Part shown: positions 5,071 to 54,676 of the stretch, in pieces | How the letters are laid out: the number at the start of each line of letters is the position of its first letter | How positions within the stretch are numbered: the stretch's first letter is position 1 | IMG/VR virus record: IMGVR_UViG_3300025010_000028 | Location: 62,001-126,000 of that record | Reading direction: 5' to 3' (one strand) | DNA: 64,000 nucleotides | From: a virus | Translations under genes and position numbers: made by a program | Notes under the pieces: generated by a model | The model's input: only the letters and a program-made list of their open reading frames with translations | Databases searched by the model: none | What the model was told of the DNA's origin: nothing

Positions 5071-5619
5071 ATGGCAAAAGTGACTAAAAGTTTTACAGAG
5101 GTATTTGAAGAAATTAAAAATGGTATTACCTTATCTAAAAAGGGTAAACCTATTGTTTCATTTAGTCGTGGTGACTTCGACAAATTAACCAAAGCATTTT
5201 TGAATGAAATCGACTATAAGGTTGAAAGTGTTTCAACCAAAGGTAATGAACTTGTAACTAAAGAAGTATTTCCAGTACAACTGTTCCGTAATATGATTAA
5301 AACAATTTTACTTGACTTCGGTGTTGATAAACAGGAAGCTCAGCGTATTGTTGAGTCGTATGAATTCAGAAATACTGATGGTTTGTATGAAGTATGCTCT
5401 GAACTCATTTATAAATATGTCGATGCCGGTAGGAAGTTTGACTTTATTCCTAAAGAAGATTTCAACGGTTCAATTGTTCTGAAGGATGTTTCTGAATTTG
5501 TTGGTCAATATACGAACATTCAAGATGGGCAAAAAATCAGTATTCGCAAAGAAGCTCATAAACTATTAAAAGCAAAGAGCAGATGTCCAAAAGGAAAAAA
5601 ACATAAAGTAAATGAATAA
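5071..5619 (+). CDS. Conserved phage protein, probably abundant
   Basis: 182 aa beginning MAKVTKSFTEVFEEIKNG, with a strong GGAGG ribosome-binding site. Base composition is visibly richer in G and C than its neighbours, the pattern of the well-expressed genes in this window (compare 10779 and the head-protein genes). The C-terminus is lysine-rich (CPKGKKHKVNE). It sits alone between a promoter-like motif and a strong terminator, so it is probably transcribed separately. It resembles conserved unannotated proteins of other Bacillota phages (from memory, not checked). A virion role is a guess. Confidence 0.7.
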   Translation: MAKVTKSFTEVFEEIKNGITLSKKGKPIVSFSRGDFDKLTKAFLNEIDYKVESVSTKGNELVTKEVFPVQLFRNMIKTILLDFGVDKQEAQRIVESYEFRNTDGLYEVCSELIYKYVDAGRKFDFIPKEDFNGSIVLKDVSEFVGQYTNIQDGQKISIRKEAHKLLKAKSRCPKGKKHKVNE

Positions 5620-5627
5620 TCTATAAA

Positions 5628-5663
5628 ATATAATGTAATGGATTAAATACCATTACATTATAT
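5628..5663 (+). terminator. Intrinsic terminator
   Basis: A 13-bp hairpin (TATAATGTAATGG and its complement) is followed by seven T. Confidence 0.85.
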
Positions 5664-5683
5664 TTTTTTATTTATAAAAAAAT

Positions 5684-5713
5684 AGAAATGGGGGTTAACC
5701 CATCTCCATTTTT
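5684..5713 (-). terminator. Terminator for the minus-strand gene
   Basis: A hairpin with the AAATGG/CCATTT arm and a GGGTTAACCC core is followed on the minus strand by CTATTTTTTT. It faces the preceding plus-strand terminator. Confidence 0.6.
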
Positions 5714-5738
5714 TAAAAAACCCATAATAATATTTTTT

Positions 5739-6068
5739 TTATTTTATAAATGAAACCACTTGAGGTTTCATTAAAGTTTTTAGGAATGTTATGAAAAACA
5801 GACCTAGAAAGCCTCCTTTCCTTGTATTGAGACTTTTTTCAATAGCTGGTTCGAATAACTGGTTCAAAAAGTGTTCACCGCCCTGTTGGATTTGATGTGG
5901 TCGAAACCGACTTATTAAGAAAGTCAATTCGCTATGACCAATAATAAATGTGTAATTGGTAACGGTTTCTACAATCAAGGGTCGGTATCCGATTAGGTAT
6001 CTACATCCCAAAGTCCCTTCATAACAATCCCATTTAACTAATTCTGTAAATCCTCGCTGTGGTTTCAT
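5739..6068 (-). CDS. Unknown protein (109 aa)
   Basis: An excellent AAGGAGGTGATAAAG ribosome-binding site precedes the ATG at 6068. The protein starts MKPQRGFTELVKWDCYEG and has a hydrophobic stretch near residues 88-100 (GLFFITFLKTLM). Base composition is clearly less AT-rich than its surroundings, which suggests high expression or recent acquisition. It is the promoter-distal gene of a three-gene minus-strand island in a plus-strand region. No family recognised. Confidence 0.6.
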   Translation of the reverse strand: MKPQRGFTELVKWDCYEGTLGCRYLIGYRPLIVETVTNYTFIIGHSELTFLISRFRPHQIQQGGEHFLNQLFEPAIEKSLNTRKGGFLGLFFITFLKTLMKPQVVSFIK

Positions 6069-43903: not shown

Positions 43904-45025
43904 CGTAAAAATTCACATAGGTCGTTAATCTATGCAGTTCTCTTATGAACTTCCCTATATTTCTATAGGATACTAGACTATATCTTCATCTCATAAAGAT
44001 ACTTCCTATTTCGATTTAAGGGACTTTCACCCACCTACTTAGGCCCTACTCCTGTTGCTTATTTCAAAGCTAAAGGATAGTCGTTGAACTTTAATCAATA
44101 TACGCATTTCCATCTTTTATATTACGATATATGTCTCTATTATTAGAATTATTTCTAATTAATAAAATTCTACATATATCATTAAACGAATAATTTCTTA
44201 ATATTAATTCTTTCATTTCATTTATTTTTTTATAAGATTTTAATTTTCTTTTACCATTCGAACTATAAGAATCATTCCAAAAATAATTTTTACTAATATG
44301 TGCCCATGATATCCTTTTTCTTATTCTATATAAAGAAGCTCGTATATTTTTATTATCGTTTAATTTTAATTCTTTTATTATTTCAGAATAAGAATATTCG
44401 TGTTGAAGCATTTGACATATTTTATGAATTTCTTTATTACTGAAAATAGAATTATGACATTCTTCACCTTTATGAATTAAACCATTTTCTTTTGCGTGTT
44501 TATTATTAGCTGCATTACTAACCCACTTTAGATTATTAACATTATTATTAATTTTATCTTTTTTACTTTTTACATTTTTATGATTTACAGTATTATTAAT
44601 TTCACTTTTTTGAAATTTTAAAAAAGTATTTGCTACTAAAACATGTATTCTGTATTTTTTAATTCTTTTTTCTACTGTTTTTAACATAACTTGAACATAA
44701 CCTTTTTTATCAATATGACCTTTTAATATTTTACCATTTTCTTTATTAATAATATTACCATAAAAACTTATTTGATATATAGATAATATTATATCATAAT
44801 TTAAATCAACCCAAAACTCTTTATTACCACAAAAGACATATAACATATTTTTTCCTCCTTTCTTTTAATAGTTTTATCATAGTTAACGTATATTAATTAT
44901 TAGCTGCGGATCACCCAATCCTAAAACATTATTACTAATAATTTAGTAGTTTTAGGCTCTAAGAGCTTCCCCGACAATTAAAGAAGATTCACTTATATGT
45001 CACCATATAAATGGGCATTTAGTTT
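43904..45025 (-). ncRNA. Group I intron 2 (1,122 bp) in RNA polymerase beta gene
   Basis: On the minus strand it has AATTGTCGGGGAAGCTC near the 5' end, GATCCGCAGC (P4-P6), TTCAACGACTATCC and GAAGATATAGTCT (the two P7 strands), and a terminal G at 43904. Splicing AATGGT to GCCGGA gives KNG-AGGFFLSNK, in frame. P1 is imperfect (exon AAUGGU with intron GCCCAUU needs a bulge). It carries the HNH endonuclease gene. Confidence 0.85.
44091..44846 (-). CDS. Intron-encoded HNH homing endonuclease
   Basis: 251 aa with AAAGGAGG before the ATG. The N-terminal NUMOD4-like part (GKILKGHIDKKGYVQVMLK) leads to RIHVLVANTFL and a compact HNH core (NTVNHKNVKSKKDKINNNV then NNLKWVS and NNKHA). Two helix-turn-helix-like C-terminal repeats (EIHKICQMLQ..YSYSEIIKEL; EMKELILRNYSFNDICRIL) probably bind DNA. 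It would cut intronless alleles to spread intron 2. The stop lies right before the P7 strand. Confidence 0.9.
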   Translation of the reverse strand: MLYVFCGNKEFWVDLNYDIILSIYQISFYGNIINKENGKILKGHIDKKGYVQVMLKTVEKRIKKYRIHVLVANTFLKFQKSEINNTVNHKNVKSKKDKINNNVNNLKWVSNAANNKHAKENGLIHKGEECHNSIFSNKEIHKICQMLQHEYSYSEIIKELKLNDNKNIRASLYRIRKRISWAHISKNYFWNDSYSSNGKRKLKSYKKINEMKELILRNYSFNDICRILLIRNNSNNRDIYRNIKDGNAYID

Positions 45026-46056: not shown

Positions 46057-48975
46057 ATCCCGTGTATTTCCTAAAGGAGACAATAATTCAGCTGGAGAAA
46101 ATAAATTCACATCTTTTAATTTATCAAGTCTATCATCATTTATATCAATATACCCTCTTGGATTTTTTATATTGGGTTCTAAGGTTAATTGTCTGGTTAC
46201 ACCACATGAAGAATCTGGTGAAGTTGACATTGCTAAAATACCTAACATTGTTTTATCATATGACCTTTTATCTTGTGTATAGGCTTCATCCAAGTTCATA
46301 CCTGAATGACCTTTTGGTGTAATAACTCTTGATTTCTCAACTTCAACAATAGGATTTAATGTGCTGTAGTCTTCCACGGTCTGTGCAACCAGTAATTTTT
46401 TAATAATGATATCTTGAGGTACAGATATTTTAACCGGATTATTATTTAAAGAAGTAGTTCTATATTTAATATAAGCGTTAGCAACTTCTTTATATATTAA
46501 AGCATTAACTAATTCATTTGATCTTATTCTATAAAGATTCATATTATTCTCTTTAATATACGAATTAGTTGCCAATAATGAATTTGCATATAGAACTAAA
46601 GAAACATAATCAGTTGGATAATTTAAATCTTGTAACACTTCTCTTGTAATAGGATCAATTAAAAATTCATATGAATTAAGAAAAGCATTACCAATTATTC
46701 TACTATTATAAAGAGTATCAAATAAAGATAAATAAACATCTTTTGAATCAAATTCACTATATTCAAAAGTTTTAGTAGGAATATCGGCAAATGCATTCAT
46801 TAATAAAGAGTTTTCAAATGGATACTTATCATAAATTAAGTACCCATCACTAAATTGAATTATTCCCTCATTACTAGTTATGTCTTTAGGTCTCTTATCT
46901 GAAAAGTAATGTTTTATATTAGCTTTCTTTATTACTGTAGATAAACCTTCTAGAAATGAAATTAATAAAATTACAGGGACATGTTTTTGCATTATATAAG
47001 CTCTAGTATATACGAATTTTTTACCACTTTTAATATCATCAAAATCTTGTACTAAACCTTGAGTCAACATAGAAAGTATATAACCAACTATATCAAAAGA
47101 TGTACCGATTCTTTGAGTATTTATATCAACTATAATAGGTATTGGTGTTTTACCATTATCATGAAAACCTATTAATAATTCATTTTCATTAAGTTTTATT
47201 TTTTTATCTGTAATCATATTAATAACATCATCTTGATTAAAATAAAATTCAGTTTTACCTATACGAATATAAGTAAAGCTTTTAGATAATTCATCATATT
47301 CTATAGTAGTATTATATTTATTATTACTAGATAAATTATTACCATATTTAACTTTAATACCTTCTTTTTGTTCATATAATAATTTTCTCATTTTTTCTAT
47401 TTTAGATGATATTTTAGTACCATAACGTCTAATAAACATCTTATTATAATTAGTACAAATTTGTACTTCGTCAGGACCTGTTTTAACAACAGGTTTCATA
47501 AATAATTGCTTCATAATAATCTTTTTATTTCCACCTAAATATAGAAATTTATCATCTATAAATTTAGGTACATCGAATTTTAATTTATGTCTAACTCTAT
47601 TTTCATCTTCTAATTCAAAGGTATATGTTTCTTTTAAATTTAATTCATCAGAAGAATCAATGTGTTCTATGTTCCTGATGTAAACTGGAATAGATTTTTC
47701 ATTTAAAAACTTTATATTATTAAGTAAATCTTTTTCATGAAGAACTTCATTATATGCCTTTTCAAAATGAGGATATCTTATAGTAGTTATATTTTTATTA
47801 GTAGTATTAACTTTATCAGAAACATCAAATTTAGGAATATCGAGTTGTTCTTTATTAGTAGTTTCATATATATTATCTATATATATTCCCATTTTATCTT
47901 CTATTATTTCTTTCTGCTTATTTCTTAATTCTTCATCCCTTTTAATAGAAGCTGTACTTCTACCAACTTTTTTCTCCTGATTCAACATATGAATTTTTTT
48001 TATAATTTCATTATCATTAATAATAGTAGATGAAACTTTATTATATATTTCTTCACTATTAGAATCATCTAATTTATTAGCATCAATTATTTCATCAACT
48101 TTTTCTTCAATACTATTTTCAAATTCATCATCTTGTTCAGTTTTATTATCACCAATAAATCTATGTTGGTCATTAAGATATCCTATCATTTTATCTGCAA
48201 TTTCTTTTCTTTTTAATATTTTTTCAATATTTTCTTCATCCATATCCAATAAACTTTTAGGAGATGATTTCATAATCTCTTTCTTAAATAATGAATATGA
48301 ATTTTTATCACATAATGATGGATTTAATCTTAATACACTATCATTAGTATAAAAGATAATATTAATATTTCCTAATTCTATAAATTTATCAAAATATTTA
48401 TACATACAGTAATAAATAATAAATATAGGATTATCAAAATTTAATTTACCTTTTATTTGGGTTCCCACGTCGTTAATCCAACTATTAATATCAATACAAA
48501 TTGTTTTATATTTGTATTGATTAAAATGACTATTATTAATTAAGTTATCTAAATAACTTATATAATTTTTAATTCTAACTCCAAAATTAACTTTCTTACT
48601 TAATTCAAAAAATAAAGTATTATGTTTTATTAAATCAACATATATATTTTTTTTATTTACTGATGGTAAATCTGTAACTGTTTGTATAAATCTAACTTGT
48701 TTTTCTATATTAGTATAAATATCAGTTCTTTCTTTACGGTATAAAATCCTAAATGTTCTATTAAATAATTTACCACTATAAATTTGGTCCATAAAATAAA
48801 AATGATACATACTACTATTTTTAATAAATTCATGTTTTAATAACTCTATAGAAGATTCTATAGTATTATTATTGATAAAAACAACACTATTAATACTAGG
48901 GTATTTTTCATCTTTAGGTAGTAAAACTTTTTGTTTATAAGTCTTAAGATGAGGTATATCTGAAATAAAAATCAA
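46057..48975 (-). CDS. rpoB-like: RNA polymerase beta subunit, exon 1
   Basis: 973 codons from a TTG at 48975 (GGTGA 7 nt upstream). The first 330 residues are divergent with an acidic linker. From about 400, beta features appear: a DDKFLYLGGNKKIIMKQLFM block ('GgyFIvnG.EkVi.Q'), KPVVKTGPDEV, and near the end VITPKGHSGMNLDEA and SPDSSCGVTRQLTLEP (rifampicin-pocket/fork region 'd.s.Gv.R.Ltl'), then SPLGNTRD at the splice site. The 12 codons beyond the splice site are intronic. The joined product is about 1,371 aa. No beta' gene is in the window. Confidence 0.85.
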
Positions 48976-48976
48976 A

Positions 48977-49033
48977 ACCTGTTCACCAACCCTTCCTTAT
49001 AATTTTTTATTATAAAGATGTTGGTGAACAGGT
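48977..49033 (-). promoter_or_regulatory. Hairpin sequestering the RNA polymerase Shine-Dalgarno
   Basis: A 14-bp stem (ACCTGTTCACCAAC and its complement) encloses a 29-nt loop containing a second small stem (TTATAA). The ribosome-binding GGTGA lies in the 3' arm, 7 nt before the TTG start, so it is paired when the whole leader is transcribed. Confidence 0.65.
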
Positions 49034-49055
49034 ATTTTACTCATACGAGTGTGGT

Positions 49056-49103
49056 AAAAAATAATCCTTACATTCTAAATTAATAACTTAGAATTAAGTA
49101 AGG
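49056..49103 (-). terminator. Leader terminator upstream of RNA polymerase gene
   Basis: CCTTAC and TTCTAA/TTAGAA arms, followed on the minus strand by ATTATTTTTT. It lies between a 9-codon ORF and the polymerase gene, as in an attenuator or an independent small transcript. Confidence 0.65.
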
Positions 49104-49117
49104 TTAAAGGTTTGTTA

Positions 49118-49147
49118 TTATTGAGCAGATGTCCAACCATTTGTCAT
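49118..49147 (-). CDS. 9-codon leader ORF
   Basis: A perfect AGGAGG sits 6 nt before ATG; the ORF encodes MTNGWTSAQ and ends at tandem stops. It is the first open frame in the polymerase leader and is followed at once by a terminator hairpin. It could be a leader peptide or an independent microprotein. Not provable from sequence. Confidence 0.45.
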   Translation of the reverse strand: MTNGWTSAQ

Positions 49148-49246
49148 CAATAACCTCCTGAAAAATTTAATAAAATTAGTCATTAATTATTTGTTCAACA
49201 ACTTTTAATTAGAGAAAAAAATTTAATTTAAAAGGAGCTGTTTTCA

Positions 49247-52678: not shown

Positions 52679-53518
52679 ATGAATTTTACACATCCAATAT
52701 TAGATAGAGTTGTTACTTATAAAAGATTAACTAGAAGAACTTATACATGGTGGAGATATACAATTAAAGATAATAAAATAACTATAATGCCATTAAAAGA
52801 TAGTTTACCTTCTTTAGATGTTATATTTAATTCTTTATTAAGAGATATTGAATTTATTCATTTATTTATGAATGATAAATATTTAATAAATAAAAATGAT
52901 AATATGATTAGTCATGTGGATTTAAATAATAATCGTTATTTTACTTTATTTAAAGACAATGAATATAAAAAATTATTTAAGATAAATTTACAATCAAAAG
53001 AAATAGGTGAACCTATTATTGATTTATCTTTAGATAATTTCTTATCTGTTTTACGTTTTTTCTATCCTAAATATATAATAGAAGATAGTATTATTTTAAA
53101 TAAAAAAATTATTTCTCAATCAGATTTAAATGAAATCTTTTTTACATTCAATATAGTTAATATTAAAAAGAAACCTTATTATTTAAATAGTTATATTAAT
53201 CTAGTTGATAAATTTAAATTAATGAATAGTGATATTAATACTAATTATATATTTTCTAGACATTTAGCTGGTTTTTCTAAAAGTAAAAGAAAATTAGGTT
53301 TATATTCATATTCAATAATAAAAAATTGGGATGAAACATCTCAAAATAATAGGAGAAAAACTTTTAGAGAAATACTACAAGATAATTATAGTAAAAATTT
53401 ATCAATGATTTTCATTGTATATTTTAAAAATAATTATGAAATAAAAGATAAAATGACTAGAAAATTTATTAATAATATGATGAAATTATTTGATGACAAT
53501 GGTTTTATTTTTTATTAA
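52679..53518 (+). CDS. Unknown protein (279 aa)
   Basis: TAGGAGTG precedes the ATG. The protein begins MNFTHPILDRVVTYKRLTRR and has a basic aromatic N-terminus (TYTWWRY), an alpha/beta middle and a helical C-terminus. No recognised family. It is the last gene before the large structured RNA. Confidence 0.55.
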   Translation: MNFTHPILDRVVTYKRLTRRTYTWWRYTIKDNKITIMPLKDSLPSLDVIFNSLLRDIEFIHLFMNDKYLINKNDNMISHVDLNNNRYFTLFKDNEYKKLFKINLQSKEIGEPIIDLSLDNFLSVLRFFYPKYIIEDSIILNKKIISQSDLNEIFFTFNIVNIKKKPYYLNSYINLVDKFKLMNSDINTNYIFSRHLAGFSKSKRKLGLYSYSIIKNWDETSQNNRRKTFREILQDNYSKNLSMIFIVYFKNNYEIKDKMTRKFINNMMKLFDDNGFIFY

Positions 53519-53586
53519 ATTTTTATCAAATAAAAAATAATTTAAATAAACATATAATTAAATGCATCTTTATGTTTGATTTAATA

Positions 53587-54080
53587 TAGGGGTGCACAAA
53601 ATCGTTATTATAAATTATATTTGTAATGATATGTCATTACGTAATTTAAATTGACGATTTTGGATCAAGGTGGCGTTCACGAGAGTGAATTGTAGGCCAA
53701 GATTGAGATTATTACTTGTGTGAACAAGTAATAATTGAAAATCGCTCAAGGGCAATAGGGAAAGAATAACAATTAATCTAAAAGATTAATTTAAAATTAA
53801 CAACAAAGAATTAAACGTAAGAATATTACGAAGATAAAGTTCATTAATTTTAAATAAATTTTAAATAGTAATATTAATAAATATACTATATATAAATAAG
53901 TTATATAAATAAAGCATAACATTAAAGATATAAATGAAAAAAACACTCTTATGCAAACATACAATAATACAATTATAAATTTAGTTTGTCTCCAAAATCT
54001 CATAAATGAAGAATAATTATACTAATATATAACGAAGCACCCTATTGCTCCCTTGAGAATATCCCATCGGAGAGGGACCT
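53587..54080 (+). ncRNA. Large structured non-coding RNA (ROOL/GOLLD-like candidate)
   Basis: About 0.5 kb without a credible gene. Long-range pairings are GGGTGC (53591) with GCACCC (54035), and CTCAAGGG-CAATAG (53747) with CTATTGCTCCCTTGAG (54041), adjacent as a closing junction. Local stems: AAAATCGT/ACGATTTT; GTAATGA/TCATTAC; TTCAC-GAGA-GTGAA and a 12-bp ATTATTACTTGT stem capped by GTGA, both GNRA tetraloops; and TCCC/GGGA. Size, GNRA loops and phage context recall the ornate ROOL and GOLLD RNAs, but I cannot verify the class. The exact 5' end is uncertain. Confidence 0.7.
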
Positions 54081-54111
54081 ACACTATTTTTTTATATAAA
54101 AAAATAATTTC

Positions 54112-54171
54112 AAATTTAGTATAAAGCTTATATTTTCATAATAGAAGATATAATATCTTTATACTAAATTT
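54112..54171 (+). terminator. Long hairpin after the structured RNA
   Basis: AAATTTAGTATAAAG pairs with CTTTATACTAAATTT, with a further inner stem (TTATAT...ATATAA). It probably ends the RNA transcript. Confidence 0.7.
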
Positions 54172-54175
54172 TATT

Positions 54176-54186
54176 TATATATTATT
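54176..54186 (+). promoter_or_regulatory. TATATATTATT motif
   Basis: It lies 61 nt before the ATG at 54248, at the head of a five-gene run. Confidence 0.5.
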
Positions 54187-54247
54187 TATTAAGTTACAAT
54201 ATATTATATAAAAATATATAAATAACTTAAAATAAGAGGAGGATAAT

Positions 54248-54676
54248 ATGAATATAAAAAATACTAGTAACAATGATTTATTAATAAATTCTTTATATAA
54301 TAATATTATATATAATATTAAGAGTAATTTGATTAAAAATTTCTTTATCAATCTAGGAAAAACAAAAGAAGAGGATATAAAAATAATACAAACACCAGAT
54401 GGTTATTTAATAGGCTTAGAAATATTATTTCCAATTAGTGAAGAAACTAATATAGTAAATAATATTTTATTAAATAGATCAATTACATTAATACGAGATT
54501 ATATATTATATAATGAATATCCAACTATTGAAATAATCAATAATATATTAAAAGATAAAGGGGGTAATTCTATAATAGAAGAAATAGAAGTAGGTTTTAT
54601 TAATAAAAAGTATTATATTAAATTTTTAATTAAAGTAAACTTTATTGACTATAGTTCAATAGTGATATTACATTAA
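54248..54676 (+). CDS. Unknown protein (142 aa), first of a five-gene run
   Basis: AAGAGGAGG precedes the ATG. Rich in I, N and K, with alternating strands in the C-terminal half (IEEIEVGFINKKYYIKFLI). It shares general size and style with the next three genes but no clear sequence identity. No motif. It is led by the promoter-like motif at 54176. Confidence 0.55.
   Translation: MNIKNTSNNDLLINSLYNNIIYNIKSNLIKNFFINLGKTKEEDIKIIQTPDGYLIGLEILFPISEETNIVNNILLNRSITLIRDYILYNEYPTIEIINNILKDKGGNSIIEEIEVGFINKKYYIKFLIKVNFIDYSSIVILH

Follow-up and report, generated by a model that had tools for sequence, protein, structure and literature searches.

A predicted late non-coding RNA with an intricate fold in an AR9/PBS1-like phage

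A gene-free block in the genome of an AR9/PBS1-like phage is probably a stand-alone gene whose product is a late non-coding RNA, and on sequence grounds we call this RNA a new family with two members. The block lies in a window of 64,000 nucleotides (the whole stretch of DNA that was analysed, to whose positions all coordinates refer unless stated otherwise), which corresponds to bases 62001–126000 of virus record IMGVR_UViG_3300025010_000028, 187,268 bases in total. The reading rests on the stability of the fold, on the pattern of change in one close relative and on a late promoter in front of the block.

The gene-free block and its relative

The RNAP beta subunit gene of the phage (46018–48975, minus strand) matches phage RNAP beta families, and its nearest kin in the phage collection are those of Listeria phage LPJP1, Staphylococcus jumbo phages and Bacillus AR9/PBS1. 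Judged by this kinship, the source phage is therefore AR9/PBS1-like and of the jumbo type. The block is flanked by an ORF of 279 aa, which ends at 53518, and one of 142 aa, which starts at 54248; no plus-strand ORF of at least 60 aa lies between these two positions. This bears out the sequence-only reading, which had described a gene-free block of approximately 0.5 kb; its limits were refined to a predicted start at 53560 and an end hairpin reaching up to about 54172. A 68-aa minus-strand ORF is present inside the unconserved linker of the block.

The plus strand from 53560 to 54180 folded at −146.4 kcal/mol, compared with −91.05 ± 3.66 kcal/mol for 20 shuffled sequences (z = −15.1). When the window was scanned in 200-nt windows on both strands (n = 642), 53560–53759 on the plus strand ranked first with a z score of −9.4, versus −7.3 for the runner-up, so the density of pairing is far above chance, as had been claimed from the letters alone. 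The runner-up, 5601–5800 (z = −7.3 and −7.1 on its two strands), is probably an inverted repeat between genes.

A single close relative was recovered, IMGVR_UViG_3300025000_000053 (249,853 bases; locus labels L004 and L006), which shares the gene order around the block. The whole block is approximately 80% identical between the two phages. The 5' core (53655–53768) is 94% identical, and the 3' core has a mean column identity of 93% to L006 over 64 columns; in the linker, identity drops to 58–74%, and L004 carries a 46-nt insertion. Since the adjoining 279-aa gene is also mostly 80–97% identical at the DNA level, identity by itself is no proof of an RNA, and it is the pattern of change that provides it.

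The minimum free energy (MFE) structure computed from the window alone was projected onto the relative. Only 22 pairs were broken, versus 47.1 ± 4.3 under a null in which the same substitutions were shuffled among like bases, and none of the 2000 rounds gave a number as low. Double changes that kept pairing numbered 10 in this window-only structure, versus 4.1 ± 1.8 expected (p = 0.004). With one relative compared, this pattern shows selection for pairing in the block. Inside the linker, 15 of the 50 predicted pairs were broken in L004 and 3 were gapped; outside it, 7 were broken and 5 gapped.

In a refined consensus structure of 121 pairs, derived in part from the same two sequences on which it is scored, 241 of 241 standard cells were able to pair, with 6 double and 14 single pair-keeping changes, and sliding the partners brought pairing down to 40–44%. 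Because this consensus was partly built from both sequences, the test with the window-only structure is the fairer one. With two members only, 80% identical to each other, there is little covariation, and no variation at all in several of the core helices.

Anatomy of the predicted RNA

All features below lie on the plus strand. Directly past the predicted start, the MFE fold contains a 5' hairpin, P1 (53563–53596), in which 5 one-sided changes kept pairing and none broke it across 13 consensus pairs; its U-G/U-A exchanges are compatible with a plus-strand RNA only. It is followed by P2 (53597–53662), a long interrupted hairpin of 26 consensus pairs with 3 one-sided changes and no breaking ones.

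The two long-range stems noted by the sequence-only reading were both present. One of them, P3, joins its 5' strand UCAAGG (53665–53670) to 54051–54056 in the RNAalifold consensus. A second UCAAGG copy at 53746–53751 competes for this partner: the 3' strand CCCUUGA is able to pair with either conserved copy (53665 or 53746), and the changes in the relative favour the first. We took the first copy as P3 and GGGCAAUAGGG as P6 in our model, with the alternative pairing as a competitor. P6, the other long-range stem, would be an 11-bp helix between GGGCAAUAGGG (53750–53760) and 54040–54050, in which 53755/54045 shows a double compensatory change from A-U to G-C and one further change is one-sided.

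P4 (53672–53698) is formed by GGC/GCC pairs and a UUCAC-GNRA-GUGAA hairpin, and its bulge UGUAG (53691–53695) is complementary to CUACA (54079–54083), a possible pseudoknot. P5 (53701–53743) consists of a GAUU/AAUC helix, a GA-rich internal loop and a 13-bp stem, with three adjacent double compensatory changes at 53714/53729, 53715/53728 and 53716/53727. These are the two stems that had been described as capped by GNRA tetraloops. The loops are GAGA in P4 and GUGA in P5 in the window and GCGA and GAGA, respectively, in L004; the GNRA identity is therefore kept while the bases differ.

P6 encloses an AU-rich variable linker (53769–54026), of which the first hairpin alone (53771–53791) is kept in the relative. 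The 3' core, CGAAGCACCCUAUUGCUCCCUUGAG...AUCGGAGAGGGACCUACACU (54031–54084), holds the 3' strands of P6, P3 and the pseudoknot. The terminator-like hairpin recognised before was found at 54112–54171, where a long AU-rich terminal hairpin is followed by the T-rich stretch TTTTATTTATATA; among its 25 consensus pairs, there were 2 double compensatory changes and no broken pair. A terminator scan that requires G-C pairs in the stem made no call on this hairpin, which is probably a transcription end or a 3' stabiliser. No palindromic loop suggestive of self-dimers was noticed by eye in the RNA. The comparison supports a fold in which a rigid core would comprise the two 5' hairpins, a junction of the two GNRA-capped stems and the two long-range helices; the core probably adds the pseudoknot and bears the non-conserved AU-rich linker.

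The block also has long AT-rich inverted repeats, and its minus strand folds with a z score of −10.0, as might a DNA-level element (a replication origin or packaging site) whose palindromes mimic RNA stems. We regard such an element as very unlikely, because the plus strand folds clearly better than the minus strand, the G-U/A-U exchanges and the GNRA loops are sensible as plus-strand RNA alone, and the promoter points in the same direction as the RNA.

Promoter and transcription unit

The promoter of the AR9 non-virion RNAP (nvRNAP) reads A-11ACA-N6-T(A/G)+1 (PMC7598289, PMC9209446). A predicted late promoter of this type, AACA-TATAAT-TA, lies at 53549–53560 on the plus strand, giving the predicted start at 53560. 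Its sequence, AACATATAATTA, is the sole exact copy in the window, is kept in the relative (L004) and lies 3 nt 5' of P1. The consensus AACA-N6-T(A/G), whose matches are short for such AT-rich DNA, occurred 44 times in 139 ORF upstreams of this phage versus 18.0 expected from coding sequence (2.4-fold), and 54 times upstream of ORFs in the relative versus 20.5 expected (2.6-fold). The enrichment was confined to the N6 spacing in both phages, and N5 and N7 were depleted in this phage.

A homologue of the AR9 nvRNAP specificity subunit (BI022_gp225, which we take to be gp226 of the structural paper on AR9 nvRNAP) is encoded at 47144–48508 in genome (G000) coordinates (E = 6.8e-16), and such a homologue was present in all four phages tested. 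By its promoter and this subunit, the block would be an AR9-type late unit, and late expression is the prediction. The phage nvRNAP would initiate at 53560 late in infection, and transcription would stop at or after the 54112–54171 hairpin, yielding an RNA of ~0.55–0.6 kb.

The block lies on the same strand as the 142-aa gene and directly upstream of it, and late read-through may occur; it could thus be a long structured 5' leader of that gene, riboswitch-like or an attenuator, just as another leader-like structured block (48976–49184, minus strand) precedes the RNAP beta gene. Several observations make this unlikely. The terminal hairpin and T-rich tail close the block, and the RNA would end more than 60 nt short of the start codon at 54248. 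Furthermore, the 142-aa gene is preceded by an early-promoter-like TATATTAT (54197–54204, plus strand), which resembles the annotated AR9 early promoters that contain ATATATATTATAA. The early-type motif occurred 26 times upstream of ORFs versus 4.0 expected; it is AT-rich, and 11 copies were also found antisense in those upstream regions. The early-type promoter of the downstream gene implies that the block is not merely a leader of that gene, and with a late promoter at the block and an early-type one at its neighbour, it reads as a separate late unit with different timing. In addition, the 142-aa protein is 71% identical between the two phages, whereas for the RNA core the DNA identity is 94%. 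These points favour the stand-alone late RNA gene.

Known RNAs and the same place in other phages

ROOL often lies near a phage tRNA island and assembles as an octameric RNA-only nanocage. GOLLD expression rises in lysis, with a tRNA nearby or within the linker. Infernal searches with the Rfam models, including ROOL, GOLLD, OLE and group I, matched no family at gathering cut-offs in the whole window, nor even at E ≤ 10 over 53400–54400. ARAGORN found no tRNA genes in the window and the other fetched stretches, which make up ~98% of the genome, all but about 4 kb next to the window, and none in the relative, nearly the whole genome of which was covered. With no Rfam match at E = 10 and no tRNAs in the stretches covered, the block RNA is not ROOL or GOLLD. 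The kinship to these two families put forward by the sequence-only reading, lacking both an Rfam match and a tRNA island, is not supported; its broader interpretation, a large and intricate functional phage RNA, is supported by the fold, the compensatory changes, the kept GNRA loops and the late promoter.

The RNA resembles ROOL (RF03087, ~0.5–0.7 kb) in its size, phage origin, intricate fold and combination of conserved parts with a variable linker; unlike ROOL, it has no model match and no tRNA island and comes from an AR9-like phage of the lytic type that has its own RNAP promoter. With GOLLD (RF01998) it shares the nature of a large phage RNA, predicted to be late here where GOLLD rises in lysis, but it fails to match the model, is shorter, lacks the conserved 3' domain of GOLLD and has no tRNA in or near the block. 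A ROOL or GOLLD too diverged for its Rfam model would account for the similar size, the phage context, the intricate fold and the linker, which in ROOL is disordered and joins conserved parts (PMC12286853). We give it hardly any weight, because no model matched at E ≤ 10 over the block or at gathering cut-offs in the window and a tRNA was found in neither phage. The jumbo phage phiKZ, which has multisubunit RNAPs, also makes non-coding RNAs (mentioned in PMC13282480); the likeness, by description alone, is that of an RNA from a jumbo-type phage with such polymerases, but phiKZ is only distantly related to this phage.

A compact conserved core with a peripheral variable domain, in a phage with at least four group I introns elsewhere, could also be what is left of a ribozyme or an intron, such as one of group I, at an intergenic site. 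This is highly improbable: the group I model RF00028 picks the four over-cut-off introns elsewhere in the genome and not the block, no gene is interrupted, and the block opens with a late promoter and closes with a hairpin.

As a non-coding RNA gene, the block would yield a folded RNA that acts in trans, most likely as a scaffold. ROOL and GOLLD build RNA-only cages (PMC12286853), and by analogy we speculate that the GNRA loops may dock in helix receptors, either of the same molecule or of another copy, and that the RNA may bind protein or self-assemble; this scaffold or self-assembly role is held with much less confidence than the late RNA gene itself. Few structured RNAs are understood as poorly as ROOL, GOLLD and similar large phage RNAs. 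Another one, unrelated to them in sequence and found in an AR9-type phage, whose polymerase and promoters are well studied, would be a tractable case, since the timing, the ends and the need for the phage polymerase are predictable and testable. The find also suggests that further RNAs of this kind, beyond current Rfam coverage, are present in jumbo-type phages.

Searches for further homologues left the family at two members; the new class that the sequence-only reading had allowed for as an alternative fits this RNA. In viral contigs, DNA patterns of the 5' core, the 3' core and the P5/P6 joint found the relative only, and the 5' core pattern gave no further homologue in genome contigs. Searches with the neighbouring proteins found no locus beyond the one relative, blastn of the block in phages and plasmids found no further homologue, and the core model gave chance-level scores over 40 whole AR9-like/jumbo-phage records besides this one, the relative excepted. 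Of the weak core-model matches (11–16 bits), those inspected sit in unrelated genes: the one in PALS_2 at a gene start, the one in L130 across the junction between the 3' end of a dUTPase gene and the beginning of its neighbour. A blastn match in a Mycoplasma phage covers the AT-rich linker alone and was dropped, and a 3' pattern match in L090 resembles a group I intron end and was judged a coincidence. Stretches of several kb that seemed gene-free in related loci were mostly long ORFs running off the piece.

In IMGVR_UViG_3300009430_000004 (L024), whose RNAP beta is 56% identical to that of this phage, a different structured gene-free block (L024 8395–8150, minus strand; z = −6.0) lies at the syntenic place, beside a homologous 269-aa gene, and counts in favour of the late RNA gene. 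It is preceded by the late-type promoter AACA-ATATAA-TA (read by eye), carries two GGGGGACCGTAC copies and has an AU-rich end hairpin. The two blocks are alike in their place near the 269-aa gene homologue, their late-type promoter, their structure and their end hairpin, but are without clear sequence or model similarity; the best targeted score of the core model was 10.2 bits (E = 0.013 in 501 nt). A match of the L024 block to RT-17 was not significant (E = 0.46). In L025, a G-rich gene-free stretch (9050–8870, minus strand) follows AACA-TAAAAG-TA (read by eye) and ends in a terminator-like hairpin; its fold (z = −2.0) is only slightly more stable than those of shuffled sequences. It is possible, though we consider it doubtful, that AR9-like phages keep a fast-evolving slot near the virion-RNAP gene in which the late non-coding RNA is a different structured RNA in different lineages, and that the present RNA is a new large class whose role late in infection is self-assembly or the scaffolding of a protein of the phage or its host.

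Other structured RNAs are predicted in the same genome. The four group I introns above the Rfam cut-off are located at G000 137712, 3626, 167420 and 166578 (genome coordinates), and there are four weaker group I matches, one of which (43952–44100) lies beside an HNH-like ORF in the split RNAP beta gene. The leader of the RNAP beta gene (48976–49195, minus strand) has a late promoter AACAAATAATTA, a conserved ACACTCGTA and a z score of about −8. It contains a short ORF with a good ribosome site, encoding MTNGWTSAQ here, MTNAWTSAR in L004 and a longer peptide in L024, as well as a hairpin within which the beta gene's ribosome site lies. This leader is a candidate second structured RNA, conserved in three phages.
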